A stretch of DNA of 29,742 bases from a virus. The notes under the pieces are model-generated. The model saw only the letters and a list, made by a program, of their open reading frames with translations, was not told the DNA's origin and ran no database searches. Shown in pieces: positions 885 through 29,610 of this stretch (within the stretch, counting starts at the first letter, position 1; every line of letters begins with the position of its first letter). The position numbers and the translations under genes were made by a program. The stretch is from positions 1 to 29,742 of the IMG/VR virus record IMGVR_UViG_3300017751_000138. One strand, given 5' to 3'.

Positions 885-908
885 AAACGCAAAAAATAAA
901 TTAAAAAT

Positions 909-917
909 CGTTATATA
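909..917 (+). promoter_or_regulatory. CGTTATATA motif, copy 1 (capsid unit)
   Basis: CGTTATATA, 6 nt before the ATG at 924, in an AT-rich gap after gene 720-884. One of five exact copies, each opening a structural or packaging unit. It shares an upstream ACGCAAAA block (from 887) with the copy at 29101, in both cases starting 22 nt before the core. Inferred late promoter or translation signal. Confidence 0.6.
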
Positions 918-923
918 AGTATT

Positions 924-1520
924 ATGAAAGCAACCAAAATGTTAAATGACATAAAAACGCTTCTAAACATCGAGGTAAAACTTGAAGAAATGAAGTTAGA
1001 GAATGGTACTGTTATCACAACAGAATCATTAGAAAAAGGGAACGAAGTATTTATCGTTACCGATGATGAAAAAGTAGCAATGCCAGTAGGGGAATATATC
1101 CTTGAAGATGGTAAGTTATTGATCGTAGAAGAAGAGGGTATCATTGCAGATGTAAGAGATGTATCTGATGATGTACCAGCTAAAGAAGAAACTGAAGATT
1201 TAGAAGAAACTATTGAAACGGAAGTACCCGAAGAAGTTGCATCAGAAGTTGAAGCAATAGTTGAAGCAGTAGTTGAGGTTATTGCACCAGTTATTGAGGA
1301 AGTAAAATCTGAAATTGAAGAACTTAAAAAACAATATTCTTCTTTAATGGATGACAAAGAAGAAGAAAAAGTAGAAGATAAGAAAAAAGAAGATTTATCT
1401 GCTGCAACAAAACCAATTACAAGAAATTCAGCACCAAAATCTAACAAAACTAAAGTAGAGTTTGGAACTGGAAAATTCGCAACAACTTTAGATAGAGTAT
1501 TAAATAAATTAAATAAATAA
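924..1520 (+). CDS. Acidic scaffold-like capsid assembly protein
   Basis: 198 residues. The ATG at 924 follows the CGTTATATA motif by 6 nt. The N-terminal ~80 residues form a compact domain (MKATKMLNDIKTLLN..., then EKVAMPVGEYILEDGKLLIVEEEG). This is followed by a very Glu-rich helical segment (about 85-155) and a basic tail. That layout (small domain, acidic coiled coil, basic C-terminus) and its place directly before the capsid gene fit a scaffolding protein; similar proteins precede MCP genes in Flavobacterium phages. The capsid gene starts 7 nt later. The long antisense ORF over this gene is a shadow of its Glu/Lys-rich codons. Confidence 0.7.
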   Translation: MKATKMLNDIKTLLNIEVKLEEMKLENGTVITTESLEKGNEVFIVTDDEKVAMPVGEYILEDGKLLIVEEEGIIADVRDVSDDVPAKEETEDLEETIETEVPEEVASEVEAIVEAVVEVIAPVIEEVKSEIEELKKQYSSLMDDKEEEKVEDKKKEDLSAATKPITRNSAPKSNKTKVEFGTGKFATTLDRVLNKLNK

Positions 1521-1527
1521 AATAAAA

Positions 1528-2508
1528 ATGGCAAATTTAAGAAAAACAAATCTTGCAACTACAGTTAATATCACTACAACTTATGCTGGTGAATTTGCTG
1601 GTGAGTATATTGCAGCAGCTTTACTATCTGCATCAACTATTGATGATGGTGGTATTACAGTAAAAGCAAATATTGCTTACAAAGAAGTATTAAAAAAATT
1701 AGCAACTGGTTCATTAGTAAGTCCAGCAAGTTGTGATTTTACACCTAATTCATCTGTAACATTAACAGAAAGAATTATACAACCAGTAGAATTACAAGTT
1801 AATCTACAATTATGTAAGTATGATTTTGTGAACGATTGGGAAGCACAACAAATGGGATATGGTTTAGGTCAGTCATTACCACCTAAATTTTCTGATTTTA
1901 TGATTGCACACGTAGCAGCAGAAGTAGCACAGAATACAGAATTTTGTATTTGGCAAGGTGATACCGCAGCTGGTACTAACAATTCATTTGATGGGTTTGA
2001 AAAACTAATTGCAGCATCAGCAGCAGCAGGTGATATACCAGCAGGTCAGCAAGTAGCAGCAGTAGCAGGTGGTTTAGATGCAACTAATATTATTGCAGAA
2101 TTATCTAAAGTAGTAGATGCTATACCAGCTTCACTTTACGGAAAAGAAGATTTATTCTTATACATTGGTTCAAAAGCAGCTAAATTCTATGTACAAGCAT
2201 TAGGTGGTTTTGTAGCAGCTGGTTTAGGTGCAAATGGTGTAAACAATATGGGTACACAATGGTGGAATAACGGATCACTAACTGTAAATGGTGTTAAGAT
2301 TTTTGTATGTCCTGGAATGTCAGACAACAAAATGTATGCAGCACAAAGAAGTAACCTATACTTTGGAACTGGATTGTTAAACGATACAAATTCTATTAAA
2401 GTATTGGATATGGCAGATTTAGATGCTTCAAACAATGTAAGAATGGTAATGCGTTTTACATCAGCAGTACAGTTTGGAATTGCTGAAGATTTAGTAGAAT
2501 ACGCTTAA
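1528..2508 (+). CDS. Major capsid protein
   Basis: 326 residues, ATG 7 nt after the scaffold-like gene. The sequence is Ala/Gly-rich and soluble, with the features of an HK97-fold capsid subunit: a helical N-terminal arm, a long central P-domain-like region, and a C-terminal part reading VNGVKIFVCPGMSDNKMYAAQRSNLYFGTG, followed by a strand-rich end (NVRMVMRFTSAVQFGIAEDLVEYA) typical of capsid and encapsulin-like proteins. Its position after the scaffold and before a strong intrinsic terminator fits the most highly expressed late gene. There is no decoration domain. The assignment rests on context and overall pattern, not on a single motif. Confidence 0.8.
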   Translation: MANLRKTNLATTVNITTTYAGEFAGEYIAAALLSASTIDDGGITVKANIAYKEVLKKLATGSLVSPASCDFTPNSSVTLTERIIQPVELQVNLQLCKYDFVNDWEAQQMGYGLGQSLPPKFSDFMIAHVAAEVAQNTEFCIWQGDTAAGTNNSFDGFEKLIAASAAAGDIPAGQQVAAVAGGLDATNIIAELSKVVDAIPASLYGKEDLFLYIGSKAAKFYVQALGGFVAAGLGANGVNNMGTQWWNNGSLTVNGVKIFVCPGMSDNKMYAAQRSNLYFGTGLLNDTNSIKVLDMADLDASNNVRMVMRFTSAVQFGIAEDLVEYA

Positions 2509-3151: not shown

Positions 3152-3185
3152 ACAATATAATTTCTACAAATTAGGTAATTATTTA

Positions 3186-3194
3186 CGTTATATA
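3186..3194 (+). promoter_or_regulatory. CGTTATATA motif, copy 2 (portal unit)
   Basis: CGTTATATA after the 3124-3151 terminator and 4 nt before the ATG at 3199. Because a terminator sits just upstream, the genes downstream need a new transcription start here or readthrough, which supports a promoter role. Confidence 0.65.
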
Positions 3195-3198
3195 GTTG

Positions 3199-3627
3199 AT
3201 GATTATATTAACCACAAGTGCAACTGCACAATCGTTATCAGTAATACCAAGAGATTACTTAACAGATTTTATTATGTCTATACGTGATGATAGTACAAAC
3301 GTAGTAAAAACCTATCAAATCAATGGTGCTACACAAGTAGGTAATTATTTAACATTTACAAATATATTTAACCCTATATTAGTAGAAAATCATTTTTACG
3401 ATGTAACATTAGAAACTGCAAATAGTTTTTGGAATACAAATGTTAAGTTATGGGAAAACGATACAACGCTTTGGAATGTAGATGATGCAAGTGATGGAGT
3501 TATTTATAAGGATAGAATTTTCTGTACAGACCAAGATATAGACCAAAATAATAATGACTATTATAACTTAAATAAAGGGCAATATACAACCTACAATGGT
3601 TATAATAATACTTATATAGTAATATGA
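3199..3627 (+). CDS. Hypothetical structural protein upstream of portal
   Basis: 142 residues from the ATG at 3199. The TTG at 3196 is in frame but adjacent to the CGTTATATA motif, and ATG is preferred. The protein is rich in Asn, Thr, Asp and aromatic residues with beta-strand patterning (TNVVKTYQINGATQVGNYLTFTNIF; later WNTNVKLWENDTTLWNVDD) and ends in a Tyr/Asn-rich low-complexity tail. No signal peptide or membrane segment is evident. Its stop overlaps the portal start (ATGA at 3624-3627), so it is translationally coupled to the portal. Neck or head-vertex function is inferred from position only. Confidence 0.7.
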   Translation: MIILTTSATAQSLSVIPRDYLTDFIMSIRDDSTNVVKTYQINGATQVGNYLTFTNIFNPILVENHFYDVTLETANSFWNTNVKLWENDTTLWNVDDASDGVIYKDRIFCTDQDIDQNNNDYYNLNKGQYTTYNGYNNTYIVI

Positions 3628-5684
3628 AAAGACAAAGAAATAGTAAAGGACAATTTACAAAAGCATCAAAGGTATCAGAATTTGGCTTTGTTAATTTAAG
3701 TACTTACACAAGCCCAGAAATTAAAGAAGTAAACGGTGAAGATTGGATAGAATACGGTGCAGATAACAATTATTTTCAATACTTAATAGATAGATACAAT
3801 GGTTCACCTACTAATAACGCTGCTATTAATGGCATTAGTCAAGCTATATATGGAAAAGGACTGAACGCAACTGATAGTAACAGAAAACCTAATGAGTACG
3901 CACAAATGATTGCATTGTTTAAAAAAGATGTAGTTAGAAAAGTGTGTTACGATTTAAAGCTAATGGGTAATGCTGCAATACAAGTAATTTACTCAAAAGA
4001 TCGTAGTAAAATTGTTCAGTTAGAGCATATACCTATTGAAACATTACGTGCTGAAAAATGTGATGAAAATGGTGAAATACCAGCATACTTTTATTTTGAT
4101 GATTGGGCAAACATAAAACGTACTGATGAACCTTTAAGAATACCAGCTTTTGGAATGTCTAAAGAGGGTATAGAAATTTATTATATAAAACCATATAAAA
4201 GTGGTTTTTACTACTATTCACCAGTAGATTATCAAGGTGGTTTACAATATGCAGAATTAGAAGAAGAAGTATCTAATTACCATTTAAACAATATTATGAA
4301 TGGTTTAGCACCATCAATGTTAATTAACTTTAACAATGGTACACCTAACCAACAAGAACGTAAATTAATAGAAAATAAAATTGCTCAAAAGTTTAGTGGT
4401 ACATCAAACGCTGGTAAATTTATTTTAGCTTTTAATGACAACAAAGAATCACAAGCAGAAATAACACCAGTACAATTAAGTGATGCACATAACCAATACC
4501 AATTTTTAAGTGAAGAAAGTACACAAAAAATAATGGTAGCACATAGGATTGTTTCACCTATGCTATTAGGTATTAAAGATGGTTCGGGTTTAGGTAATAA
4601 TGCAGAAGAAATAAAGACTGCATCCTTACTAATGGATAACACCGTTATAAGACCATTTCAAGAACTTTTAATTGATTGCTTTGACCAAATATTAGCGTAC
4701 AATGAAATTAGCTTAAACCTATATTTTACAACATTACAACCTTTAGAATTTACAGATGTAGATAAGTCAGTACAAGATGCAGATACTATTGAAGAAGAAA
4801 CGGGTGTTGAAAAAAGAAGATTTAGCCTAAAACAAATAGATGGCAAAGAAGCATACGAAACCAAAGAGGAAGCAATAAAGGTAGCAGAAGAAATGGGTTG
4901 TGGTGGTTATCACGCACACGAGGTAGAGGGTATTACATATTATATGCCTTGTGAAACACACCAAGAATTAAAAGCACCTTGTTGGGATGGTTACGAACAA
5001 TATGGTACAAAAATAAAAGATGGTAAGGAAGTACCTAATTGTGTTAAAATGGAAAAAGAACCTTTTTTATCTGATGAAATGGGTGAATCTATTTTAAAAC
5101 ATTTACAAGGTGAAAAAGTTGGTGATGAATGGGAATTGGTAGATGAATTAAGTACAGATGAAAACATTAGTGATGATGATTGGGCAAATATTTGTATAAA
5201 AAAGAAAAAAAGTTTATTCACAAGGCTATATGATGAAATTACATCTAAAAACAATGGTAGTGCTGAAAGCTATTTAGATTCTAAATATTATAAAATAAGA
5301 TATAAATATGTTGTAGGATCAACTAAAGCAATGGAAAAAGGCAACCAGTCAAGAACCTTTTGTAAAAATATGATGCGTTTATCTGATGATGGTATTATAT
5401 ACCGAAAAGAAGATATTGACCAAGCAAGTTTTAGAGGTGTAAATAATGAATTTGGGCATAAAGGGCAAAACTATTCGCTTTTCAAATTTAAAGGGGGTAT
5501 TTATTGTAGGCATAAATGGGTTAGGGTTTTGTATAGAATGAAAGCAACAACTGAACCATCTGAAAATTTAGATGACTATAAAAGAACAAGGGCAATACCA
5601 TCAAGTTATAATATTAAACCAGCTGGTACAAGAGAATCAGAAATAGCACCAATTAATATGCCCGATAGAGGTGCATACAAATAA
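3624..5684 (+). CDS. Portal protein with C-terminal extension
   Basis: 686 residues; the ATG overlaps the upstream stop. Residues 1 to about 385 look like a phage portal: EYGADNNYFQYLIDRYNGSPTNNAAINGIS near the start, and HRIVSPMLLGIKDGSGLGNNAEEI near 306-330, the region after the stem/wing of SPP1- and HK97-type portals. After an acidic linker there are three further modules: GGYHAHEVEG-ITYYMPCETHQEL (about 422-445), CWDGYEQYGTKIKDGKEVPNC (about 453-473), and a C-terminal domain from about 555 (YKIRYKYVVG, FCKNMM, IYRKEDID, KGGIYCRHKW). I recall such modules in other Bacteroidetes phage structural or protease proteins, so this looks like a fusion. The neighbouring protease at 29113 lacks a comparable tail. 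Confidence 0.8.
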   Translation: MKRQRNSKGQFTKASKVSEFGFVNLSTYTSPEIKEVNGEDWIEYGADNNYFQYLIDRYNGSPTNNAAINGISQAIYGKGLNATDSNRKPNEYAQMIALFKKDVVRKVCYDLKLMGNAAIQVIYSKDRSKIVQLEHIPIETLRAEKCDENGEIPAYFYFDDWANIKRTDEPLRIPAFGMSKEGIEIYYIKPYKSGFYYYSPVDYQGGLQYAELEEEVSNYHLNNIMNGLAPSMLINFNNGTPNQQERKLIENKIAQKFSGTSNAGKFILAFNDNKESQAEITPVQLSDAHNQYQFLSEESTQKIMVAHRIVSPMLLGIKDGSGLGNNAEEIKTASLLMDNTVIRPFQELLIDCFDQILAYNEISLNLYFTTLQPLEFTDVDKSVQDADTIEEETGVEKRRFSLKQIDGKEAYETKEEAIKVAEEMGCGGYHAHEVEGITYYMPCETHQELKAPCWDGYEQYGTKIKDGKEVPNCVKMEKEPFLSDEMGESILKHLQGEKVGDEWELVDELSTDENISDDDWANICIKKKKSLFTRLYDEITSKNNGSAESYLDSKYYKIRYKYVVGSTKAMEKGNQSRTFCKNMMRLSDDGIIYRKEDIDQASFRGVNNEFGHKGQNYSLFKFKGGIYCRHKWVRVLYRMKATTEPSENLDDYKRTRAIPSSYNIKPAGTRESEIAPINMPDRGAYK

Positions 5685-6275: not shown

Positions 6276-9200
6276 ATGGCAACTTTATTTAATACTAAAA
6301 TATCTGATACTTACGAGGGGTTAATAAAAACATCTGATAATGGTGTAATAGGTGCAGTAGAAAAAAACCTAACTGATGGTTTAGGTAACGCATCAACTTT
6401 AAGTATAGGTACATCATCAGCAAGTTTTACTGGAACTTTAGATTTAACAAACGCAACTGTAGTTGGTTTATCAAGTGGTGCAGTTGATAGTGTAAACGGG
6501 CAAACGGGTGTTGTTGTTCTTACAAGTACTAATATAGCAGAGGGTACAAATTTATATTTTACAGATGCAAGGGTAGAATCAAATAGTGCAGTTGCTTTAA
6601 ATACTGCAAAAGTTACATTCCCCGAAGCACCAAACGATGGGCAACAGTATGCAAGACAATCGCAAGGGTGGTCAGTTGTAAGTGGTGGTGGTGCAGTAGA
6701 TAGTGTTAATGGGCAAACTGGTGTTGTGGTACTTGATACAGATGATATTACAGAGGGTGCAACAAATTTGTATTACACCGATGCAAGAGTTGATGCAAAC
6801 AGTAATGTTGTAGCAAATACTGCAAAAGTTGGAATTACTACATCACAATCTGATGCTATTGTTTTAAATACTGCAAAAGTTGGTATCACACCAACACAAG
6901 CAAATGAAATATCTGCTAATACATTAAAGGTAGGAATAACCACACAACAAGCTACTGATATAACAAACAACAACGCTAAAATATCTTTTGATAGTGCTTC
7001 AAGTACAAAGTTAAATGGTATTGAAGCTGGTGCAGAAGTTAATATTTTTACATCATTAACAACTAATGGTAGTGGTGGTTCAGCTACACTTGTAAGTGGT
7101 GTTTTAAATATACCTCAATATAGTAGTGGTGGTGGTGGTAATGTTTCTTCTGTAAATGGACAAACTGGTACGGTTGTTCTTGAAACTGATGATATAAGCG
7201 AGGGTACAACTAATTTATACTATACAGATTCAAGAGTTTCTGCAAATAGTAGTGTATCAGCAAATACTGCTAAAGTAGGCATAACATCACAACAAGCAAC
7301 GGACATTACTAATAACAACGCTAAAGTTGGAATTACTACAAGTCAAGCAAACGAAATAGCAGCAAACACTTTAAAGGTAGGTATCACACCTACACAAGCA
7401 TCAGACATTACTACCAATAATGCAAAGGTAGGCATCACAACGCAACAAGCAAGTGATATAACAACTAACAATGCCAAAGTAGGTTATACGGATGCTTTAG
7501 TATCTGCTAATTCAGATGTAGTTGCAAATACTGCAAAGGTTGGTATCACATCAAGTCAAGCAACTGCAATAACAAATAATACTGCAAAAAATTCTTACCC
7601 TACTGCTGATGCAACTAAACTTGCAGGAATACAAGCAGGTGCAGAAGTAAACGATGTAGATAGCGTAAATGGTTTAACGGGTGCAGTTTCTTTAGGATTG
7701 CTTGAATTAGATGATGTAGGTGCAGATGGAATAAGTGGGCAAGTATTAACAACTAATGGTAGTGGTGCTTTTACTTTTACAACTGTCAGTAGTGGTGGTG
7801 GTGGTGTTTCAAGTGTAACGGGAACTGGTTCAGTAAGTGGTTTAACATTAACAACGGGGGGTACAAGTACTGATCCTATATTAACATTAGGTGGTACATT
7901 AAGTTTAACAAGTGCAAACGTAACAAGTGCTTTAGGCTTTACTCCATACAGTAATACAAACCCAAACAATTATATTACGGGAATTGATAGTAGTGATGTT
8001 ACAACTGCTTTAGGTTTCACACCTTACAATGCTACCAATCCAAATAATTTTATTTCTACATATACAGTAACAAATTCTGATGTAATTACTGCTTTAGGCT
8101 TTACACCTTATAATAGTACAAACCCAAGCAATTTTACAAGTAATTTAGGAATAGTACAAAGTGTTACGGGTAATGCAGGAAGTTTAGAAATTGTTAATGG
8201 TGTTTTAAATGTACCACCATCAGCAGCACCAGTAGATAGTGTAAATGGTGCAACGGGGGTAGTAGTGTTAGATACAGATAATATTGCACAAGGTACAACC
8301 AATAAATATATGGTATTGGGTACAACTGCAAGTACTGCTTTAGCAGGTAACACAAGTTTATTACAACTTGGTACAACATCAACTACTGCCCTTGCTGGTG
8401 ATACAACTACAATTACACCTACACAAGCTGCAAATATTACAACCAACAATAGTAAAGTTTCTATGGTTTTAGGAACTACTGCTGGTACTGCATTAGAGGG
8501 TAATACTACAACAATAACACCTACACAAGCAAACGAAATAACTGCAAATACTGCTAAAGTTTCATTTGTAGATGCACCAAGTGATGGTAATGAATATGCA
8601 AGAAAAAATGCAGCTTGGGTTATAGTTACAGATGCAGATAGTGTTACAAGCGTAAATACTCAAACTGGTGCAGTAGTACTTGATACGGGTGATATTGCAG
8701 AAAATGTAAATCTTTATTTTACCGATGCAAGAGTTGCAGCAAATTCAGCAGTTACATTAAATACTGCAAAGGTAGGTTTTACACAAGCATTGGTATCTGC
8801 TAATACTGATGTTGTAGCTAATACTGCTAAAGTTGGTATCACTACACAACAAGCTACTGATATAACCAATAATAATTCAAAGGTTTCAATGGTTATCGGT
8901 ACTGCTGCAAATGAAGCAATGGCAGGTAACACTACTACGATTACACCCACACAAGCATCTAATATAACTGCTAATAATGCTAAAAATTCTTATCCAAGTG
9001 CAGATGCAACAAAGTTAGCAGGAATTGAAGATAATGCAGAAGTTAATGTACAATCAAATTGGAATGAAACAGATACAAATAGTGATGCTTTTATTCAAAA
9101 CAAACCAACTATACCAAGTGCTGCACCCGTTGATAGTGTTAATGGTGATACTGGGGTTGTAGTTTTAGGTACAGATGATATTGCAGAGGGTACTAATAAC

Positions 9201-9704
9201 CTTTATTATACAGAAGCAAGAGTATCTGCAAATTCAAGTGTAGCAGCTAATACTGCAAAAGTTGGAATTACCACACAACAAGCATCAGATATAAGTGCAA
9301 ATAATAATAAGGTAGGTATTACTACTCAACAAGCAAGTGATATTACTGCAAACAATGCAAAGGTTTCAATGGTACTTGGTACAACTGCTGGAACTGCTTT
9401 AGAGGGTGATACTGCATTATTGCAATTAGGTACATCATCAACAACTGCATTAGCAGGAGATACTACAACTATAAGTCCAACACAAGCAGCAAACATCACA
9501 ACTAACAACGCTAAAAATAGTTATCCAACTGCAGATGCTAATAAATTAGCAGGAATTGAAACAGGTGCAGAAGTAAACACTATTGATAGTAATACAACAG
9601 GAGAGGGTACGGGAGCTACTCAAATTTTAAATGTAGTCAGTATGACAGCAGCACAATATGCAGGCTCTCCTCAAAATGCAACAACTTTATATATAATTAC
9701 TTAA
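6276..9704 (+). CDS. Tail fibre / receptor-binding protein, repeat-rich
   Basis: 1142 residues. Low-complexity Thr/Asn/Ala/Val/Gly composition typical of trimeric fibres. There are seven related SVNGxTGxVVL units, most followed by DDIxEGTNLYYTDARV; eleven KVGIT units with a 17-residue period where tandem; three ALGFTPYxxTNPxNF units near residues 550-625, a known fibre repeat; and four TKLxGIExxAEVN units. The C-terminal end (ILNVVSMTAAQYAGSPQNATTLYIIT) resembles fibre ends in marine phages. The start MATLFNTKISDTYEGLIKT probably forms the tail-attachment part. No chaperone domain or enzymatic motif was seen. It overlaps none of its neighbours; the fibre-tip-like gene follows after 1 nt. Confidence 0.85.
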   Translation: MATLFNTKISDTYEGLIKTSDNGVIGAVEKNLTDGLGNASTLSIGTSSASFTGTLDLTNATVVGLSSGAVDSVNGQTGVVVLTSTNIAEGTNLYFTDARVESNSAVALNTAKVTFPEAPNDGQQYARQSQGWSVVSGGGAVDSVNGQTGVVVLDTDDITEGATNLYYTDARVDANSNVVANTAKVGITTSQSDAIVLNTAKVGITPTQANEISANTLKVGITTQQATDITNNNAKISFDSASSTKLNGIEAGAEVNIFTSLTTNGSGGSATLVSGVLNIPQYSSGGGGNVSSVNGQTGTVVLETDDISEGTTNLYYTDSRVSANSSVSANTAKVGITSQQATDITNNNAKVGITTSQANEIAANTLKVGITPTQASDITTNNAKVGITTQQASDITTNNAKVGYTDALVSANSDVVANTAKVGITSSQATAITNNTAKNSYPTADATKLAGIQAGAEVNDVDSVNGLTGAVSLGLLELDDVGADGISGQVLTTNGSGAFTFTTVSSGGGGVSSVTGTGSVSGLTLTTGGTSTDPILTLGGTLSLTSANVTSALGFTPYSNTNPNNYITGIDSSDVTTALGFTPYNATNPNNFISTYTVTNSDVITALGFTPYNSTNPSNFTSNLGIVQSVTGNAGSLEIVNGVLNVPPSAAPVDSVNGATGVVVLDTDNIAQGTTNKYMVLGTTASTALAGNTSLLQLGTTSTTALAGDTTTITPTQAANITTNNSKVSMVLGTTAGTALEGNTTTITPTQANEITANTAKVSFVDAPSDGNEYARKNAAWVIVTDADSVTSVNTQTGAVVLDTGDIAENVNLYFTDARVAANSAVTLNTAKVGFTQALVSANTDVVANTAKVGITTQQATDITNNNSKVSMVIGTAANEAMAGNTTTITPTQASNITANNAKNSYPSADATKLAGIEDNAEVNVQSNWNETDTNSDAFIQNKPTIPSAAPVDSVNGDTGVVVLGTDDIAEGTNNLYYTEARVSANSSVAANTAKVGITTQQASDISANNNKVGITTQQASDITANNAKVSMVLGTTAGTALEGDTALLQLGTSSTTALAGDTTTISPTQAANITTNNAKNSYPTADANKLAGIETGAEVNTIDSNTTGEGTGATQILNVVSMTAAQYAGSPQNATTLYIIT
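6814..9399 (+). repeat. Degenerate internal repeats of the fibre gene
   Basis: Tandem 51-bp units encoding a 17-residue period (AKVGITxxQAxxIxxNN) occur in clusters near 6820-6970, 7260-7570, 8820-8880 and 9250-9370, interspersed with SVNGQTG units. DNA copies differ at many third positions, so these are old protein-level repeats, not fresh duplications. Confidence 0.8.
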
Positions 9705-12825: not shown

Positions 12826-12838
12826 AACAGTATCTTTG
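12808..12838 (+). promoter_or_regulatory. Host-type promoter upstream of a terminator
   Basis: TTG at 12808-12810, 20-nt spacer, TATCTTTG at 12831-12838 (exact TAnnTTTG). It starts inside the 3' end of the NinG-like gene. Transcription from it would meet the terminator at 12867-12894 after only about 50 nt. Confidence 0.6.
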
Positions 12839-13466: not shown

Positions 13467-13592
13467 ATGAAAAAACGTAAAGTAAAACCACCTTTAAATG
13501 ATAAAATAAAATTTATACCTTGTGATGAAAATAGACAAATATATTCTTATACAAGAACAGATAAAAAATCAGCACAAAGGGAAATAAAATGA
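13467..13592 (+). CDS. Small basic hypothetical protein
   Basis: 41 residues, ATG 8 nt after the preceding stop, TGA at 13590. It is Lys/Arg-rich with IKFIPCDENRQIYSY and an RTDKKSAQREIK end. Single cysteine. Short but in register between two tight genes. No function recognised; nucleic-acid contact is possible from charge. Confidence 0.5.
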   Translation: MKKRKVKPPLNDKIKFIPCDENRQIYSYTRTDKKSAQREIK

Positions 13593-13615
13593 ATATTAAC
13601 TAAATTTATATATAT

Positions 13616-13918
13616 ATGAGTACATTAATCAATGGTTCAATTAGAGTAGATAAACTACCAAAAGAAAAGTTTATCAAAGGAAAAGATGGTGCAGTTTATT
13701 ACAACTTTACTATTTCAGTACAAGATGAAACACGATACGGGAACAACGTAGCGTTTATGGATTCACAAACAAAAGAAGAACGAGATGCTAAAATGCCAAA
13801 AAACTATTTAGGTAATGGCAAAGTAGTTTGGACTGATGGAACTGTTACATTAGCAGAACGTGAAGAAAAGCAACTTGAAGTTGCAGTAGATGAACAAAGT
13901 GGTGATTTACCATTTTAA
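13616..13918 (+). CDS. Single-stranded DNA-binding protein
   Basis: 100 residues. A short OB-fold-like domain (NGSIRVDKLPKEKFIKGKDGAVYYNFTISVQDETRYGNNVAF) is followed by DGTVTLAEREE and an acidic tail ending SGDLPF. The acidic tip with a terminal Pro-Phe is the protein-interaction tail of bacterial and phage SSBs. It would coat ssDNA and recruit the ATPase and nucleases next to it. The ATG at 13616 sits directly behind a TATATATAT tract with no SD site. A terminator follows at 13927, so it ends a transcription unit. Confidence 0.75.
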   Translation: MSTLINGSIRVDKLPKEKFIKGKDGAVYYNFTISVQDETRYGNNVAFMDSQTKEERDAKMPKNYLGNGKVVWTDGTVTLAEREEKQLEVAVDEQSGDLPF

Positions 13919-13926
13919 ATTTAAAA

Positions 13927-13956
13927 GGGTGTTATTAATTTAATGCCCTTTTTTTT
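13927..13956 (+). terminator. Intrinsic terminator after SSB
   Basis: Stem GGGTGTTA / TAATGCCC (8 bp, two wobbles, loop TTAATT) followed by eight T. Weaker than the others, so it may be partly read through into the ATPase gene. A TATCTTTA box at 13958-13965 could restart transcription. Confidence 0.75.
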
Positions 13957-13979
13957 ATATCTTTATAGAAAAATAATAT

Positions 13980-14819
13980 ATGACTAAACAACAACAAACT
14001 GAACACAATATGTTAATGGACTTTATCGAACACGATTGTAAAGTAGACATTAACGAAAAAATAGACTATCCACCAGTAGCATTAAGTTATGGTGAAAAAT
14101 TATTAAAATCTGAAAGTGGTGATAAATTAGTACCGATTGCTTTAGGAACTTATGGGAACTTATCAGTAGTTACAGCACCACCAAAAACTATGAAAACATT
14201 TTTTATTTCTTTATTAGCATCAGTATATTTAAGTGGTACAAATATATATGGTGGTAACTTAAAAGGGCATAAAGGTAATGGTCATCTTTTACACATAGAT
14301 ACCGAACAAGGCTTATGGCATTGTCAAAAGGTATTTAAAAGACCATTAACAATGGATTCAAGTATAAACACAAATAACTACCATACATTTGGGTTAAGGT
14401 CAATAGATCACAAAATGCGAATAGATTTTATAGATTACTATTTAGAAAACAAAATAGATAAACCAAGTTTAATAATAATAGATGGTATTGCTGATTTATG
14501 TAGTGATGCCAATTCAATAATAGAATCAAATGCTTTAGTGCAAAGATTAATGGAATGGAGTGCTAAATATAAATGTCATATAATAAATGTTATACACCAA
14601 AACTATGGTAGCCAAAAATTTGGTACTGGGCATTTAGGGAGTTTTCTTGAAAAAAAAGCAGAAACAGTTATAGCATTAGAAGCAAATACAGTAAACAAAG
14701 ATTGGGTTACTGTTAAGTGTGGTAGGTCAAGAGGTTATTCTTTTGATACATTTTCTTTTGAAGTTAATGATGTAGGTTTACCACAAATAGTAAATAATAT
14801 TTATGATCCTTTAGCGTAA
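13980..14819 (+). CDS. RecA-fold ATPase, RepA/Sak4-like
   Basis: 279 residues. Walker A-like APPKTMKT at 66-73 (A-x-P-K-x-x-K-T form), HIDTEQ at 105-110 (catalytic Glu region after strand 2), Walker B LIIIDGIADL at 164-173, and HQN at 206-208 as a sensor-like strand end. The AAPKxxKT-type P-loop marks the AAA_25/RepA-like helicases and phage Sak4 recombination ATPases. With SSB and a possible annealase next door, it acts in phage DNA replication initiation or recombination. A primase domain is absent, and no DNA polymerase gene exists in the window, so it probably recruits host replication. It overlaps the next ATG by 1 nt. Confidence 0.75.
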   Translation: MTKQQQTEHNMLMDFIEHDCKVDINEKIDYPPVALSYGEKLLKSESGDKLVPIALGTYGNLSVVTAPPKTMKTFFISLLASVYLSGTNIYGGNLKGHKGNGHLLHIDTEQGLWHCQKVFKRPLTMDSSINTNNYHTFGLRSIDHKMRIDFIDYYLENKIDKPSLIIIDGIADLCSDANSIIESNALVQRLMEWSAKYKCHIINVIHQNYGSQKFGTGHLGSFLEKKAETVIALEANTVNKDWVTVKCGRSRGYSFDTFSFEVNDVGLPQIVNNIYDPLA

Positions 14820-15298
14820 TGGTAGAAAAAACAATGGTATTAATTGCTGAAAAGCACAAAACCTGGATAGAAATAGTTACCAGCTTCGGTTGCCCAAAAG
14901 AAACATCAGAAGATATAGTACAAGAAATGTATATTAAGATACATAAAAAACTAAATAAAGGTTTAGATATTATGTACAATGATGAGGTAAACTACTACTA
15001 CATATTTAAAACATTAAGAACATTGTTTTACGATTTAAAACGCAAGGAAAAAAACATTACTATTATTAATATTGAAGATGTAGATATTGATAAGTCTATT
15101 TCAGATATTGATTATGATAAGGCATACGCAATTATAAAAAAAGAATTAGATAATATGTTTTGGTATGATAGGAAAGTATTTGAAATAATTAATAGTGGTG
15201 AAAGCATAGCAGAATTTAGTAGAAAATCATACATACAATACTATTCATTGTATAATACTTACAACAAAGTAAAAGATAAATTAAAGAAACTGCTATGA
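14819..15298 (+). CDS. Divergent sigma-factor-like protein
   Basis: 159 residues, TAATG coupling to the ATPase. Residues 24-45 (GCPKETSEDIVQEMYIKIHKKL) match the core-binding helix of sigma-70 region 2 (consensus about AEDivQevFlki), and NYYYIFKTLRTLFYDLKRKEKN (58-79) fits the following region 2.3/2.4 helix. After an acidic linker, residues 107-157 (ELDNMFWYDRKVFEIINSGESIAEFSRKS..YSLYNTYNKVKDKLKKL) have the length and helix pattern of region 4, with ESIAEFSRKS as the first HTH helix. No anti-sigma or extra domain. It is the best candidate to read the CGTTATATA motif before structural genes. It could instead be a sigma-fold protein without promoter function. Confidence 0.7.
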   Translation: MVEKTMVLIAEKHKTWIEIVTSFGCPKETSEDIVQEMYIKIHKKLNKGLDIMYNDEVNYYYIFKTLRTLFYDLKRKEKNITIINIEDVDIDKSISDIDYDKAYAIIKKELDNMFWYDRKVFEIINSGESIAEFSRKSYIQYYSLYNTYNKVKDKLKKLL

Positions 15299-15750
15299 AA
15301 ACAAAACCAAATAAATTCATACAAAAATCATATAATAGAAGTGATACATTTGCTAAAGATATATTTATTAAATATGCTAAATTTTTCGGTCATAAAATAA
15401 TTAAGAAAAAAGAAGATTACGGAATGGATGTTATAACATCTAAAGATGGTAAAAAATATTACTTTGAACTTGAATTATTATCATATAAACCTTTTATAAA
15501 TTCTAAAACTTTTTACTATAAAAATGTAAGTTTTTTAGCAAGAAAAAAAAGGTTACACAAAATAAATAGTTTTAATTATGTTATAATTTGTTCTGAAACT
15601 GGTTATGCAGTTACTTGTTTTTCTGATGAAATATTTAAAGAAAAATACTATGTTGAACAATTTATAAATAGTAAAGAACGAAAAGGTATTGATAAATTTT
15701 ATAGAGTACCTAAAAATAAATGTAAATTTTTAAACTTAAATGTAATATGA
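15295..15750 (+). CDS. PD-(D/E)XK-like nuclease candidate
   Basis: 151 residues, ATGA overlap with the sigma-like gene. Strongly basic with many Lys/Tyr/Phe. Residues about 40-62 (KKKEDYGMDVITSKDGKKYYFELEL) show the layout D-x(12)-ELE, like the core of restriction-endonuclease-fold proteins (acidic residue, hairpin, E-x-E/K strand). FNYVIICSETGY gives a further buried strand. The fold is inferred from this pattern only; a resolvase or a defence/counter-defence nuclease would fit. It follows the sigma-like gene with 4-nt overlap and leads into a small conserved gene. Confidence 0.45.
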   Translation: MKTKPNKFIQKSYNRSDTFAKDIFIKYAKFFGHKIIKKKEDYGMDVITSKDGKKYYFELELLSYKPFINSKTFYYKNVSFLARKKRLHKINSFNYVIICSETGYAVTCFSDEIFKEKYYVEQFINSKERKGIDKFYRVPKNKCKFLNLNVI

Positions 15751-15893
15751 AATTAGGAAACCTTATTTACTACATTACTAAATATACTGGTATAAAATAC
15801 CTTGTTGATACCTGGCATAAATACAGAGGTACAAAATGTAATTGCAATGAACGTAGAAAAAAGTTAAACGAAATAAAAATAGATCGATGGTAA
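15747..15893 (+). CDS. Small CxC protein
   Basis: 48 residues, ATGA overlap at 15747. Sequence includes IYYITKYTGIKYLVDTW and TKCNCNERRKKLNEI. A small phage protein with a C-x-C-x-x-R-x-x-x-L-N motif is frequent in Bacteroidetes phages; function unknown. Both ends overlap other genes (7 nt with the next), supporting translation. An antisense ORF here is a shadow. Confidence 0.65.
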   Translation: MKLGNLIYYITKYTGIKYLVDTWHKYRGTKCNCNERRKKLNEIKIDRW

Positions 15894-16099
15894 AATTTAA
15901 TAAGCAAGACTATGCAAAATGGGAAAACTTTAGAATGGGTACAAAGCAACACATTACTAACCAAGAATTTGAATTGGTGTGTAAACTACACGCTGAATAC
16001 CACAAACACAATTACTACAAACCTTGTACTTGTAACCCAAGAACAATAAAGCAATGGATAAAAGATTTAAACGTAATATGGAATAATGGTATTAAATAA
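15887..16099 (+). CDS. Hypothetical protein
   Basis: 70 residues, overlapping neighbours by 7 nt and 14 nt. Residues NQEFELVCKLHAEYHKHNYYKPCTCNPRTIKQWIKDLN carry three Cys and three His in a compact patch (C-x(9)-HxxxxH-x(6)-CTC), a possible metal-binding site. The end RTIKQWIKDLNVIW looks helical. Function unknown. Confidence 0.65.
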   Translation: MVKFNKQDYAKWENFRMGTKQHITNQEFELVCKLHAEYHKHNYYKPCTCNPRTIKQWIKDLNVIWNNGIK

Positions 16100-16510: not shown

Positions 16511-16541
16511 TTTGTTTATAAGTTAATTAATAGTATATTTG
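16511..16541 (+). promoter_or_regulatory. Strong host-type promoter
   Basis: TTTG at 16511-16514, 19-nt spacer, TATATTTG at 16534-16541: an exact Bacteroidetes -33/-7 pair. The block 16498-16521 recurs with one mismatch at 21198-21221. Drives the small genes, exonuclease and DnaA-like gene. Confidence 0.8.
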
Positions 16542-17351: not shown

Positions 17352-18061
17352 TATTATTAGTAGATGCAGATAGTTTAATATTCGCTGCTTGTTATAAGAA
17401 ACGTGAACATCCAGAGGATGAAAAATACTATACAGATATAGAAGATGCAAGAGCAAAGTTTGATGAGCAATATATGTCAATAGTAAACCACCTTGAAGAA
17501 ATGTACCAAATAGATAAGGTAATAACCTTTAGTGGATCAAAGGGCAACTTTAGAAAACTTATAACAAACGATTATAAAGCCAATAGAAAAAAGCAAGAAC
17601 TACCACCATTACTAAATGAAATGCACAAATTTGTAAAAGAACATTACGATTCAGTATATGGTTATGGTATTGAAACTGATGATATGGTTGCAAGGTACTG
17701 GAAAGAACTAACCGATGAATTAGGTAGGGATGAAGTAATGATAGTGAGCATAGATAAAGACTACAAACAATTTCCTTGCTTGATGTACAACTATCACTAT
17801 AAGCACAAAGAGGTATTAGATATTTCAGAAGATGAAGCATTGTATAATTTCTATGAACAAATGATTGTAGGAGATACTGCTGATAATGTAAACTACTTTA
17901 AAGGTAAAGGTGTAAGATTCGCACAAAAGTATTTTGAAGATTGCCAAACAAAATACCAATACACAAAAAAGTTATACGAATTATTTAAAGAACAATATAA
18001 AGGAAAAGCAAAACAAAAATATATAGAGTGCTACAACCTTTTAAAATTAAGAACCAATTAA
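17348..18061 (+). CDS. 5'-3' exonuclease / flap endonuclease (FEN family)
   Basis: 237 residues. FEN/5'-exonuclease signatures in order: LLVDADSL with D6 and D8; FSGSKGNFRKLITNDYKANR (61-80), where DYKANR matches the conserved Y-K-x-x-R; ETDDM at 109-113; SIDKDYKQ at 134-141; GDTADNVNYFKGKG at 165-178, the helix-hairpin-helix with metal-binding Asp. All metal ligands expected for the nuclease core appear present. It lacks a polymerase domain, like T4 RNase H and T5 D15. Role: removal of RNA primers/flaps in phage replication, or host DNA breakdown. It couples by ATGA upstream and TAATG downstream to the DnaA-like gene. Confidence 0.85.
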   Translation: MILLVDADSLIFAACYKKREHPEDEKYYTDIEDARAKFDEQYMSIVNHLEEMYQIDKVITFSGSKGNFRKLITNDYKANRKKQELPPLLNEMHKFVKEHYDSVYGYGIETDDMVARYWKELTDELGRDEVMIVSIDKDYKQFPCLMYNYHYKHKEVLDISEDEALYNFYEQMIVGDTADNVNYFKGKGVRFAQKYFEDCQTKYQYTKKLYELFKEQYKGKAKQKYIECYNLLKLRTN

Positions 18062-18639
18062 TGGATATACAAAAACACGAAATAGAACTTAATAGAATAA
18101 AAAGCTATGTAGATAAACATAGTGGGTATGATATAAGCACAAGGTCAAGGAAAGCAGAAGTAGTATTGTTTAGAACATTGTACTTTAAAATAGCAACCGA
18201 TACTACAAGCTGGTCATTACAAAAAATAGGGCAAACAGTAAATAGAGATCACGCAACCGTATTACACGCAAAGAAAAAACTATATGCTGAACTAATGCAA
18301 AATAAACATCTAACAAACCTATATGAAATATATAGAATAGAAGTATTAGGTCATCAAGTAAAAGCATACTATAAAGATGCAGAACAATACAATAGACTAA
18401 AACAAAAGTATAACGATTTATTGGCTTTAAAAATACCTAAAAATTTAGGTTACGAACTAACCAAAAACGAAACTGCATATAGAAAACTATCTGATGAAGA
18501 TAAAAAGGTATATGATGAACGTGCTGAACTTGTATTAAAGTCTTTTGAATGGAAGCGTAAAGATGAACAAAGAAAAGAAGTATACGATATAATTATTGGT
18601 GAACCAACAGTAACCGATGCAAGAGCAAGTTTAAGATGA
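18061..18639 (+). CDS. DnaA domain IV-like DNA-binding protein
   Basis: 192 residues from ATG 18061 (TAATG overlap); an in-frame upstream extension to 18028 lies in the exonuclease gene. Residues 27-75 match DnaA C-terminal domain IV: RSRKAEVVLFRTLYFKIATDTTSWSLQKIGQTV followed by NRDHATVLHAKKKL, where RDHATVLHA (62-70) corresponds to the DnaA signature RDHTTVLHA that reads the DnaA box. There is no AAA+ ATPase domain. The C-terminal ~120 residues are charged and helical. It could bind phage or host origins, or act as a DnaA competitor. A perfect DnaA box lies 42 nt downstream (18681). Confidence 0.75.
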   Translation: MDIQKHEIELNRIKSYVDKHSGYDISTRSRKAEVVLFRTLYFKIATDTTSWSLQKIGQTVNRDHATVLHAKKKLYAELMQNKHLTNLYEIYRIEVLGHQVKAYYKDAEQYNRLKQKYNDLLALKIPKNLGYELTKNETAYRKLSDEDKKVYDERAELVLKSFEWKRKDEQRKEVYDIIIGEPTVTDARASLR

Positions 18640-18795: not shown

Positions 18796-19671
18796 ATGAA
18801 ATTAAAAAACAATACAAATATATTTTGTTCTGTTTCTGCTGGGTATAGTAGTGTTATGATGGCTATAAAAATAAAAGAGTGGTTTTCAAATCATAATATT
18901 ATTTATGCTATGGCAAACACATCAAAAGAACACGAAGAAAGTTTAATATTTATGAATAAATGTAATAAATATTATAATATAAATATGAAATGGATTGAAG
19001 CTGGTTTTAATGAAAAAGGTGTAGGTGTAGATTTTAATATAGTTAAATATGAAAACCTAAAAACAAAAGGTGAAATATTTGAACAAGGAATAAAAAAACT
19101 TGGAATACCATCTAACATAAATAAATGGTGTAATAGGGATATGAAGTTAAGACCATTAAAAAAATATGCTGATAGTGTTTTTGGTTTAAATAACTATTCA
19201 ATAGCAGTAGGTTTAAGAATTGATGAAATGGATAGGGTAAGAAAAGATTATAAAGAAAATAATGTATTCTATCCTTTAATGGATAAAAAAATAGATAAAA
19301 GACAACGTAATAGATTTTGGAAAGACCAACCTATAAAAATAAATATACCAGCTTATAAAGGTAATTGTGATATGTGTTTCGAAAAGTCAAATAGAAAACT
19401 AATGACAATTATAAAACAAGAACCAAATAAAGCAGAATGGTGGGATAATATGATCCAAAAATATGGGAATGTATTAATTGAAGATAAACCAAGTTATAAT
19501 GATTTACTTAAACAAAATAACGGAATGTCTTTTTATAGAAAATATAAAACAATAGAAGATTTAGTAAAGATGGCTGAACAACCTTTTAATATTTATAATG
19601 ATGAATATATTTATGAAAATGATTTATTTGATTTAGAGGGTGAATGTGGAAGTGGTTGTAAAGTTTTTTAA
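18796..19671 (+). CDS. PAPS reductase-like / adenine nucleotide alpha-hydrolase protein
   Basis: 291 residues, ATG directly after the previous stop. PP-loop-type fold: FCSVSAGYSSVMMA (10-23) stands where PAPS-reductase-like phage proteins have SxSGGxxS; NKWCNRDMKLRPLKKY (109-124) matches the family's WCTxxLKxxP motif; AVGLRIDEMDR (137-147) the GxRxxE..R strand. GNCDMCFEKSNRK (189-201) adds a CxxC, and the C-terminus ends ECGSGCKVF with two more Cys, so a metal or Fe-S site is possible. Typical members use ATP or PAPS chemistry; in phages the role is unclear (sulfur metabolism or nucleic-acid thiolation). The P-loop residues Ala15 and Tyr17 are atypical, so activity may differ. Confidence 0.75.
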   Translation: MKLKNNTNIFCSVSAGYSSVMMAIKIKEWFSNHNIIYAMANTSKEHEESLIFMNKCNKYYNINMKWIEAGFNEKGVGVDFNIVKYENLKTKGEIFEQGIKKLGIPSNINKWCNRDMKLRPLKKYADSVFGLNNYSIAVGLRIDEMDRVRKDYKENNVFYPLMDKKIDKRQRNRFWKDQPIKINIPAYKGNCDMCFEKSNRKLMTIIKQEPNKAEWWDNMIQKYGNVLIEDKPSYNDLLKQNNGMSFYRKYKTIEDLVKMAEQPFNIYNDEYIYENDLFDLEGECGSGCKVF

Positions 19672-19687
19672 AAACACAAATTAAATA

Positions 19688-19696
19688 CGTTATATA
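19688..19696 (+). promoter_or_regulatory. CGTTATATA motif, copy 3 (terminase unit)
   Basis: CGTTATATA 16 nt after the PAPS-like gene. A TTG follows 1 nt later and the terminase small-subunit ATG 25 nt later, so the spacing to the start differs from the other four copies unless TTG is used. Confidence 0.6.
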
Positions 19697-19721: not shown

Positions 19722-19988
19722 ATGGATAAAAGAAAAAATAACGGAGGTGCAAGAGAGGGTGCAGGTAGACCAAAGAAAGCTGATGAACTAAAACTAATTG
19801 AAAAATTAGATAACCTAATTGATAATGATGAGGTGATCAAAACATTAGGTAAACAAATATTCAAAGGTGATTCTCGTGCAATGTCTTTATACTTTGGTTA
19901 TAGATATGGTAAACCAAAAGAAACAGTAGATATAAATTCAAGTGAGGGTTTTAATATAAACTTTAAAGATATTATAAGGTTTAAGTGA
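19722..19988 (+). CDS. Terminase small subunit
   Basis: 88 residues from ATG 19722; an in-frame TTG at 19698 would add eight residues and lies right behind the CGTTATATA motif. NNGGAREGAGRPKKADELK (6-24) is the classic N-terminal motif of phage terminase small subunits (GGARxGAGRPxK), followed by helices (EKLDNLIDNDEVIKTLGKQIFKGDSRAMSLYFGYRYGKPKE) that form the DNA-binding/oligomer part. It recognises packaging sites and regulates the large subunit, whose GTG start overlaps its stop (GTGA at 19985-19988). Confidence 0.85.
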   Translation: MDKRKNNGGAREGAGRPKKADELKLIEKLDNLIDNDEVIKTLGKQIFKGDSRAMSLYFGYRYGKPKETVDINSSEGFNINFKDIIRFK

Positions 19989-21193
19989 TAGATGTAAACT
20001 TAAAGTACGAACCAATAAAAACATCTGATGCCAGGTATTTTATTGTAACTGGTGGTAGAGGTTCGGGTAAATCTTATTCTATTAACCTATTGCTTTTGCT
20101 TTTAACATTTGAAGCAGGACATACAATTCTATTTACAAGGTTTACTTTATCATCTGCATACATATCTATTATACCCGAATTTATAGACAAAATAGAAACA
20201 CTTGAATTACAAGACCATTTCTATATAACTAAAAACGAAATAATAAATAAGCTATCTGGAAGTAAGATAATATTTAAAGGTATCAAAACATCAAGTGGGG
20301 ATCAAACTGCAAATCTAAAATCACTTACCAATATATCAACGTGGGTTATGGATGAAGCAGAAGAACTTGTTGATGAAAACATCTTTGATAAAATAGATTT
20401 ATCAGTTAGAAACCTAAAAAACAAAAATAGGGTTATACTTATATTAAACCCAGTTACAAAAGAACATTGGATATACAACAGATTCTTTCAAGACAAAGGG
20501 GTACAAGCTGGCAGTAATACCACAAAAGGCAATACAACGTACATACACACTACTTATTTAGATAATGTAGAAAACCTATCAAAAAGTTATTTAGAGCAGA
20601 TAGAGAGCATTAAAATACGTAGACCGAATAAATACAAGCATCAAATGTTAGGGGGTTGGTTAGAAAAAGCAGAGGGTGTTATATTTACTAATTGGTCAAT
20701 AGGTGAATTTAAAAAAGTAGGTGTTTCAGTCTTTGGTCAAGATTATGGTTTTGCAAATGATGAAAATACTTTAGTAGAAACCAACATAGATACTACAAAC
20801 AAAATAATCTATTTAAAGGAATGTTTTTATTTAAAAGGACTTACTACATCACAAATAGCTGAACTGAACTTAAAACACGCTGCAAACAATTTAATAGTTG
20901 GTGATAGTGCTGAACCAAGATTAATTCACGAAATAAAAGCAAAGGGTTGTAATGTTGTTGCATCAATTAAAGGTGCTGGATCTATAACCTATGGAATATC
21001 TTTATTACAAGATTATGATTTAGTAATAGAAGAAAACAGTATCAACTTAATAAAAGAACTAAACAACTATTCTTGGTTAGAAAAGAAAAGTAAAACACCA
21101 CAAGATAAATTTAACCACATTATAGATGCCATAAGGTATTCTGTTTCATACCAATTACAAAACCCTAATAGGGGAACTTATTATGTTTCTTAA
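19985..21193 (+). CDS. Terminase large subunit (PBSX/Terminase_3 type)
   Basis: 402 residues, GTG start overlapping the small-subunit stop. Walker A GGRGSGKS (23-30), Walker B and catalytic Glu in WVMDEAEE (120-127, D123 E124), coupling motif ILNP (near 155). The C-terminal RNase H-like nuclease has VFGQDYGFA (D253), IVGDSAEP (D307) and HIIDAIRY (D381), the expected three acidic residues. ATP-driven packaging and cutting of concatemeric DNA. Family pattern is that of PBSX XtmB/Terminase_3, several members of which package by headful, consistent with circularly permuted ends. A terminator is absent; a new promoter starts 17 nt downstream. Confidence 0.93.
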   Translation: MIDVNLKYEPIKTSDARYFIVTGGRGSGKSYSINLLLLLLTFEAGHTILFTRFTLSSAYISIIPEFIDKIETLELQDHFYITKNEIINKLSGSKIIFKGIKTSSGDQTANLKSLTNISTWVMDEAEELVDENIFDKIDLSVRNLKNKNRVILILNPVTKEHWIYNRFFQDKGVQAGSNTTKGNTTYIHTTYLDNVENLSKSYLEQIESIKIRRPNKYKHQMLGGWLEKAEGVIFTNWSIGEFKKVGVSVFGQDYGFANDENTLVETNIDTTNKIIYLKECFYLKGLTTSQIAELNLKHAANNLIVGDSAEPRLIHEIKAKGCNVVASIKGAGSITYGISLLQDYDLVIEENSINLIKELNNYSWLEKKSKTPQDKFNHIIDAIRYSVSYQLQNPNRGTYYVS

Positions 21194-22250: not shown

Positions 22251-22285
22251 ATTATATTTACTACTATAAAATAGTTAAATAAATA

Positions 22286-22294
22286 CGTTATATA
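22286..22294 (+). promoter_or_regulatory. CGTTATATA motif, copy 4 (tail unit)
   Basis: CGTTATATA after the 22224-22250 terminator and exactly 3 nt before the ATG at 22298. The terminator just upstream argues for a transcription start here. Confidence 0.65.
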
Positions 22295-22297
22295 GAT

Positions 22298-22948
22298 ATG
22301 AATATTAATATTGAAATACCAACAAAGTTATCTGATATTACTTTAGGGCAATACAAAAGGTTTCTAAATATCCAAAAGCAAACTGAAGAATCACATTTTT
22401 TAAATGCTAAAGCTATTGAAATATTTTGTGATATTGAACTTAAAAACGTTATGCGTTTGAAGATGGCAGATTTTGATAAAATTACAAACAAGATCAATTC
22501 ATTGTTTGAGCAAAAACCAAAGCTGGTACAACGGTTTAAAATTGATAGTGTTGAATATGGCTTCCACCCACAATTAGATGAATTAACATTAGGTGAATAT
22601 ATTGATGTAGATACTTACATTGCAGATTGGGAAAATATGGAAAAGACAATGAACGTATTATACAGACCAATAGAAAACAAATTAAAAGATAGATACTCAA
22701 TAAAAGAATACAATGTTGATACAAGTGATAATTTATTAGCTATGCCAATGGATGCAGTTTTGTCATCAATTTTTTTTTTGTGGAATTTAGGGATAGACTT
22801 ATCGAAAACTATTCTGAACTATTCGGAACTGGGGGAGGTAACGAACTTAACGCATCAGCAAATTTTAGCAGAAAATGGGGATGGTATCAGTCAGTATACA
22901 CACTCGCTAATGGGGATATTACAAGACTTGAAGATATCACCAAATTAG
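22298..22948 (+). CDS. Tail assembly chaperone, short form (G-like)
   Basis: 216 residues, ATG 3 nt after the late motif. N-terminus MNINIEIPTKLSDITLGQYKRFLNIQ and the central QLDELTLGEYIDVDTYIADWENMEKTMNVLYRP are typical of flavobacterial phage proteins in the tail-chaperone position. It ends 79 codons upstream of where lambda-like logic would place a tape-measure-binding T domain, but a second frame with that domain overlaps it from a T10 run. The reading frame after the T10 run (LWNLGIDLSKTILNYSELGEVTN...) is the unshifted end. It folds or coats the tape measure before tube assembly. Confidence 0.7.
   Translation: MNINIEIPTKLSDITLGQYKRFLNIQKQTEESHFLNAKAIEIFCDIELKNVMRLKMADFDKITNKINSLFEQKPKLVQRFKIDSVEYGFHPQLDELTLGEYIDVDTYIADWENMEKTMNVLYRPIENKLKDRYSIKEYNVDTSDNLLAMPMDAVLSSIFFLWNLGIDLSKTILNYSELGEVTNLTHQQILAENGDGISQYTHSLMGILQDLKISPN
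22770..22779 (+). other. T10 slippery run for -1 frameshift
   Basis: Ten T. In the zero frame they read (AT)T-TTT-TTT-TTG, so the heptamer T-TTT-TTT (22771-22777) is an X-XXX-XXX slippery site. A -1 shift leads directly into the chaperone extension frame. Extra T insertion by polymerase slippage would give the same result. Confidence 0.7.
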
Positions 22949-29078: not shown

Positions 29079-29100
29079 ACGCAAAATTTAAAATTAAAAA

Positions 29101-29109
29101 CGTTATATA
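29101..29109 (+). promoter_or_regulatory. CGTTATATA motif, copy 5 (protease/head unit)
   Basis: CGTTATATA exactly 3 nt before the ATG at 29113. The upstream ACGCAAAA (from 29079) lies 22 nt ahead of the core, as at 887 for copy 1. Confidence 0.65.
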
Positions 29110-29112
29110 ATT

Positions 29113-29610
29113 ATGAAAATAATAGAACTTATTTTAGATGAAGATCAAGAAGATGCAGGAGTAGAAGCAATATCTATTGTAGAAAGTCCAGCTATTGAAT
29201 CAGACTTTATTGCTTTAAAAGACCAAGAAATAAAATTAGCACAAGTAGATGGTGATAAAAAAATCTTAATGGGTGCTTTGTTAATACCTAATAAACCTAT
29301 TTATAGAAATGGTGCAGAGGGTGAATATTACATTTACTTTTCTAAAGATACAGTACAAAAAGCATCACAAATGTATTTAAAGAATGGCTATCAAAACAAT
29401 AGTACATTAGAACACGCAGAAACTTTAAGTGGTTTAACACTTGTTGAAAGTTGGTTAGTAGAAGATGAAGTACAAGACAAATCAAGAAAATACGGACTTA
29501 ATGTACCAGTAGGTACTTGGATGGGTGCGGTAAAAGTTAATAACGCTGAAATATGGCAAGAGTATGTTAAGACAAATAAAGTTAAAGGTTTTTCTATTGA
29601 AGAGTATTAA
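29113..29610 (+). CDS. XkdF-like prohead serine protease
   Basis: 165 residues, ATG 3 nt behind the late motif. Hallmarks of XkdF-type phage proteases: DAGVEAISIVESPAIESDFIAL (14-35), a GALLIPNKPIYR strand (54-65), EYYIYFSKDTVQKAS (71-85), LEHAETLSGLTLVESWLVED (99-118; H101 and S113 are candidate catalytic residues), VPVGTWMGAVKV and a terminal KVKGFSIEEY. XkdF is a capsid-maturation protease that trims scaffold and capsid N-termini. It is only the protease core; the C-terminal extension often carried by related proteins is absent here, while similar modules sit on the portal. Next genes lead, via the window ends, into the capsid cluster. Confidence 0.8.
   Translation: MKIIELILDEDQEDAGVEAISIVESPAIESDFIALKDQEIKLAQVDGDKKILMGALLIPNKPIYRNGAEGEYYIYFSKDTVQKASQMYLKNGYQNNSTLEHAETLSGLTLVESWLVEDEVQDKSRKYGLNVPVGTWMGAVKVNNAEIWQEYVKTNKVKGFSIEEY

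Follow-up and report, generated by a model that had tools for sequence, protein, structure and literature searches.

Late-gene timing is hardly known in Bacteroidetes phages that carry no RNA polymerase of their own. The window analysed here (the whole stretch of DNA under study, a 29,742-base viral record from IMG/VR) raises this question through a single ORF at 14819..15298 (+ strand): is its 159-aa product a sigma factor, and does it direct the host polymerase to a motif that stands before the structural genes? Since the ends of the window sit about 0.1 kb apart in relatives, it represents approximately a whole, circularly permuted genome. A sequence-only reading had held that this genome lacks an RNA polymerase gene, a statement verified in part, as the 28 main ORFs scanned contain no Pfam match to one.

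The reading frame of the ORF is intact and begins with an ATG that overlaps the stop codon (TAATG) of the gene immediately 5' of it, which encodes an AAA_25/RecA-like ATPase (13980..14819, + strand; Pfam AAA_25, 1.8e-8). This gene order is retained in most relatives examined. Just 5' of the ATPase-sigma pair lies an intrinsic-terminator-like hairpin with a T-run (13923..13952, + strand), and a hairpin-like G-run/T-run block occupies the equivalent place in relatives. This element may delay sigma expression, which would then depend on read-through or on a weak host promoter. Within 13923-13979, the hairpin and T-run are followed by a TATNTTTA-like box ahead of the gene pair. In one clade (loci L111, L114, L123, and L126 of records G015, G017, G018, and G020), CGTTAACATT-ATG and an upstream AAAACA-like stretch are found directly 5' of the sigma gene, a site that is a possible autoregulatory promoter.

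The ORF encodes a minimal sigma factor of the ECF type, and the case is made by the family alignment and the predicted structure, together with homology to gp35 of phage P12024L. Taken alone, the window protein matches sigma models weakly and below curated cut-offs (Pfam Sigma70_r2, E=0.05; SigZ, E=1.7e-4); its phmmer search against the PDB yields chance matches only, and tblastn against isolate phages returned no match at E<=1, P12024L included. A first IMG/VR scan recovered 247 stretches related to the protein, and a wider scan extended the family to members of ~21% identity. Of the NCBIfam ECF sigma models, NF058625 is matched by 28 of 31 family representatives and TIGR02937 by 25 of 31 (E<=0.01; best E 8.2e-12), while Pfam Sigma70_r2 is matched by 30/31 family members at E<=0.1. 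The family profile also recovers sigma factors from the PDB. The earlier proposal of a divergent sigma gene is thus borne out by profile searches with the family members, which match ECF and sigma-70 models, and weakly by the window protein on its own. Among cultured viruses, the Nonlabens (Persicivirga) phages P12024L and P12024S carry homologues of the window sigma (24% identity), portal (40%), and terminase (56%), a relationship reached through terminase synteny and direct protein comparison. Their gp35 is annotated only as a 'hypothetical protein containing Sigma-70 region 2'; that of P12024L matches ECF models over its length, with E-values down to 5.6e-8. Bacterial and archaeal genomes, when scanned, yielded a single weak relative, encoded by a Bacteroidetes MAG. 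An apparent interruption of the sigma gene in record G046 was rejected, as the stop precedes the start codon.

According to an AlphaFold2 prediction made with the family alignment (pLDDT 90), the protein has two domains joined by a short, loose linker: (i) sigma2, at approximately residues 13-78; and (ii) sigma4, at approximately residues 99-158, with a flexible linker at ~79-98. The helices correspond to these two domains only, region 1.1 and sigma3 being absent. Four helices make up the predicted region 4 (residues 99-112, 115-125, 130-137, and 141-158). The relative placement of the two domains is uncertain (pTM 0.50), and because it differs, the whole-chain rmsd to solved ECF structures is large; region 2 alone superposes on that of E. 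coli sigmaE at 3.3-3.9 Å. In a Foldseek search of the PDB, nearly all of the top ~30 fold matches were sigma factors, as were the matches with a probability of at least 0.97, the best of them to ECF factors (SigL, SigH, SigE, RpoE, AlgU); none reached E<=0.001. Conservation within the family peaks in the region 2 helix EDIVQEMYIKIHK (residues 31-43), and Asp32, Val34, Gln35, Met37, Tyr38, and Lys40 are invariant or nearly so in 31 sequences, down to ~21% identity, such that invariant residues concentrate in the core-binding helix. The core-binding helix and the plausible region 4 helix set that had been read from the letters are both present, and structure prediction returns a sigma2-linker-sigma4 fold.

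The motif itself, CGTTATATA, occurs in five exact copies in the window, all on the + strand, against 0.26 expected, and none of 100 shuffles reached five. When one mismatch is allowed, there are 13 occurrences against 12.7 expected; significance is therefore limited to exact copies near an ATG. Each exact copy lies just 5' of the first gene of a structural or packaging unit, so that the shared motif described earlier stands. CGTTATATA is the -10 part of a predicted two-part promoter, [C/T]AAAA-N14-CGTTATA(TA). The upstream element was sought in 29 non-redundant sites picked only by the 9-mer and a nearby ATG, and [C/T]AAAA emerged unselected at -19..-15 with a score of 4.2, where the highest of 2000 rotations reached 1.38. 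The gap between the two elements is 14 nt. Usually 3-6 nt separate CGTTATA from the ATG, with about 25 nt for the terminase small-subunit gene; measured from the C of the motif to the A of the ATG over 72 sites, the distance is 12 in 40, 13 in 14, and 15 in 11, and at the terminase small-subunit gene it is 33-34 nt. As the distance to the ATG varies while the 14-nt gap stays, the -10 element keeps its position relative to the upstream element and not relative to the ATG. ECF promoters, those of flavobacteria included, typically have a -10 box of the CGT type (PMC9723704). The ECF promoter form, a CGT-type -10 with an A-rich or AAC -35 approximately 16 nt away, is found both in the window and in P12024L (AAC-N16/17-CGTT).

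The five predicted promoters and the units behind them, all on the + strand, are as follows. Late promoter 1 (890..917) has a CAAAA-like element at 890-894, 14 nt, and CGTTATATA at 909-917, 6 nt before the ATG at 924; late unit 1 (924..2508; phrog_24921, phrog_11320) comprises a scaffold-like ORF and ORF 1528-2508, probably the major capsid gene. One and the same profile matches the scaffold-like ORF with its C-terminal part and the protease with its N-terminal part. Late promoter 2 (3167..3194) has CAAAT at 3167-3171 and, after 14 nt, CGTTATATA at 3186-3194, 4 nt from the ATG at 3199, and heads late unit 2 (3199..5684), in which an ORF of ~142 aa precedes the portal gene (3624-5684; phrog_33693, 2e-97; Pfam Phage_portal, 6e-10). 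Late promoter 3 (19669..19696; TAAAA at 19669-19673, 14 nt, CGTTATATA at 19688-19696, ~25 nt to the ATG at 19722) precedes late unit 3 (19722..21193), with a small-subunit-like ORF, assigned to the terminase by its position, and the terminase large subunit (19985-21193; TerL phrog_2, 8.5e-40). Late promoter 4 (22267..22294; TAAAA at 22267-22271, 14 nt, CGTTATATA at 22286-22294, 3 nt to the ATG at 22298) lies 3' of a terminator-like site and opens late unit 4 (22298..22948), a 216-aa ORF heading the tail-gene cluster (phrog_32199, synteny). Late promoter 5 (29082..29109; CAAAA at 29082-29086, 14 nt, CGTTATATA at 29101-29109, 3 nt to the ATG at 29113) stands before late unit 5 (29113..29610), which encodes an XkdF-like head maturation protease (Pfam Peptidase_S78_2, 5e-13).

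Gene and motif also occur together across relatives. In 36 sigma-bearing genomes, 117 bipartite, start-adjacent CGTTA sites were counted against 7.4 expected from permuted cores, whereas five Bacteroidota phages without the sigma gene, controls that are distant relatives, had one site against 1.3 expected. Three sigma-bearing records (G016, G019, G021) had no sites under the strict rule. When IMG/VR was scanned with only the promoter pattern, irrespective of the gene, 80 loci were recovered; structural genes homologous to those of the window were present at 76 of them, and every one of the 11 records of 22-34 kb carried the sigma gene. It was absent from two larger records (70 and 101 kb, with one and three motif copies, respectively), which look like chance hits. 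In a portal-based sample, 5 of 7 records had the sigma gene; the other two (G065, G067), with motif but without gene, were rejected as counterexamples, both contigs ending before the sigma locus. Relatives that keep the motif and lack the gene were thus not found among contigs covering the sigma locus.

The form of the motif varies with the sigma factor. Records with mostly CGTTAA (P12024L, G037, G038, G027, G031) group in a single sigma clade (support 96/94), and nearly all records outside it carry CGTTAT; as the variant follows the phage phylogeny too, it supports the pairing of sigma and motif without proving it. The late genes of P12024L carry AAAACAAA-N-CGTTAATA at a spacing similar to that of the window promoters, from which they differ in having one more A and in the greater strength of the AAAACAAA element. 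No description of the P12024L promoters was found in the literature searched, the original genome paper lying outside that search. In P12024L (L082), small annotated minus-strand ORFs are arranged back to back with late promoters at 2980, 5365, and 25945, and at least at 5365 the upstream element of the late promoter is overlapped, on the opposite strand, by a host-type TATATTTG box.

The pairing that the sequence-only reading had put forward is backed by this co-occurrence and by the motif variant tracking the sigma tree, direct recognition being presumed. As gene and motif occur in the same phage lineages, they could in principle have been co-inherited without direct contact. A host ECF sigma could read the CGTTATA promoters while the phage protein does other work, such as helping or blocking a host sigma. 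Flavobacteria have several ECF factors, and the ECF-type promoters of Flavobacterium psychrophilum have a CGT box (PMC9723704), so this type of motif is not unique to the phage. This explanation is nevertheless improbable: the phage protein keeps both domains needed for binding core and promoter, gene and motif are found together in very divergent phages while the five other Bacteroidota phages lack the gene and have the motif at chance level or not at all, and the motif variant tracks the phage sigma tree.

Phages are also known to use co-activator and sigma-appropriator proteins. The window protein could be a sigma-fold protein of this kind that works with the host primary sigma, like T4 AsiA/MotA or a detached region 4 protein, and the strong divergence of its family would agree with this. 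Against it, sigma2 and sigma4 are both present in full ECF topology, conservation is highest in the core-binding helix, and the late promoters lack the host TAnnTTTG box, as had been read from the sequence; such a role is therefore very unlikely. The least probable reading makes CGTTATATA a translation-initiation element, for although it lies at ribosome-binding distance (C to A of the ATG mostly 12-15 nt) in a group where Shine-Dalgarno sites are absent (PMC6847099), its fixed 14-nt gap to the upstream element reaches beyond any ribosome site, it stands 33 or 34 nt from the ATG at the terminase small-subunit gene, and it occurs at unit starts only, with none at internal genes.

The preferred reading, that the phage sigma redirects the host polymerase to the CGTTATA promoters of the late genes, is very probable, although binding, recognition, timing, and start sites are what we infer. 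The host consensus box is TAnnTTTG (PMC6847099), and on the coding strand of the window such boxes lie mainly from 10 to 16.6 kb. Two candidate host-type -7 boxes on the + strand, each with an upstream TTG, are TATCTTTG (12831..12838), between early genes, and TATATTTG (16534..16541), in the early module. Scans for E. coli-type sigma-70 promoters fell below shuffles and were uninformative, as expected for Bacteroidetes. Host polymerase would probably read the early genes from TAnnTTTG boxes, and the sigma factor, produced at an early or middle stage of infection, could then bind host core RNA polymerase via its sigma2 helix. Its sigma4 domain would read the A-rich element and its sigma2 domain CGTTATA, and with the polymerase so redirected, the five late units (protease, scaffold/capsid, portal, terminase, and tail) would be switched on.

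By analogy with ECF promoters generally and with phiEco32, late transcripts would begin at the ATG or within a few bases of it. Because the -10 element is usually 3-6 nt from the ATG, the majority of late mRNAs are expected to have no leader or almost none. This would be unusual: leaderless mRNAs amount to only 5.5% in F. psychrophilum (PMC9723704), and leaders of >10 nt were found for 87% of predicted transcripts in F. johnsoniae (PMC6847099). Since CGTT lies 12-15 nt from the ATG at most sites, which in effect fuses the -10 element with the start codon, we slightly favor the idea that the sigma creates a leaderless late transcriptome, possibly switching translation too.

Control of late genes by an ECF sigma factor that the phage itself encodes has precedents in phiEco32 (gp36), with homologues in SU10 (gp32), 7-11, and Privateer (PMC4331800, PMC4281155, PMC7881722). 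There, the motif tAATGTATAtA is described before middle and late genes (PMC4281155, PMC4331800, PMC7881722), in phiEco32 6-8 nt before start sites (PMC4281155). The window resembles phiEco32 in its ECF-type phage sigma, in the presumed use of host core enzyme, and in a short -10-like motif of its own, with a TATA part, before structural units. In contrast, the phiEco32 group comprises large (77-90 kb) enterobacterial podoviruses with a different motif, for which the cited passages describe no clear -35, whereas the small Bacteroidetes phages have two-part promoters; phiEco32 also has, in the same accounts, gp73, an inhibitor of the host sigma70 polymerase. The F. psychrophilum ECF promoters (motif SM6; PMC9723704) differ from the phage system in serving host genes with a host sigma. 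What is new here is that small Bacteroidetes phages harbor a widespread and strongly diverged branch of these factors, together with a promoter of two parts that matches it; their late mRNAs are probably leaderless. The sigma-bearing family consists of widespread small marine viruses of Bacteroidetes-type bacteria, and it supplies a concrete sigma-promoter pair common to hundreds of uncultured viral contigs and to the cultured P12024L and P12024S. The motif is a ready marker of late genes in viral metagenomes, the pair is an orthogonal promoter-sigma set that could serve Bacteroidetes genetics, and the arrangement predicts leaderless late mRNAs in bacteria without Shine-Dalgarno sites.

Several further features were observed. 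The Bacteroidota phage phiST of Cellulophaga (L425) has an annotated RNA polymerase of its own (13528-15897), a different solution to late transcription, and the sigma gene was not found in its first 40 kb. A 1142-aa ORF of the window (6276-9704) consists of many degenerate repeats (VNGQTGVVVL, TANTAKVGIT) with no Pfam match and is probably a tail fibre or adhesin. The early module includes a protein with a DnaA C-terminal DNA-binding domain (18028-18639), and the annotation of Olleya phage Harreka_1 lists a DnaA-HTH protein resembling it. A PAPS-reductase-family gene (18796-19671) adjoins the terminase unit, and RAP44 also has genes of this family, one of them near its terminase.
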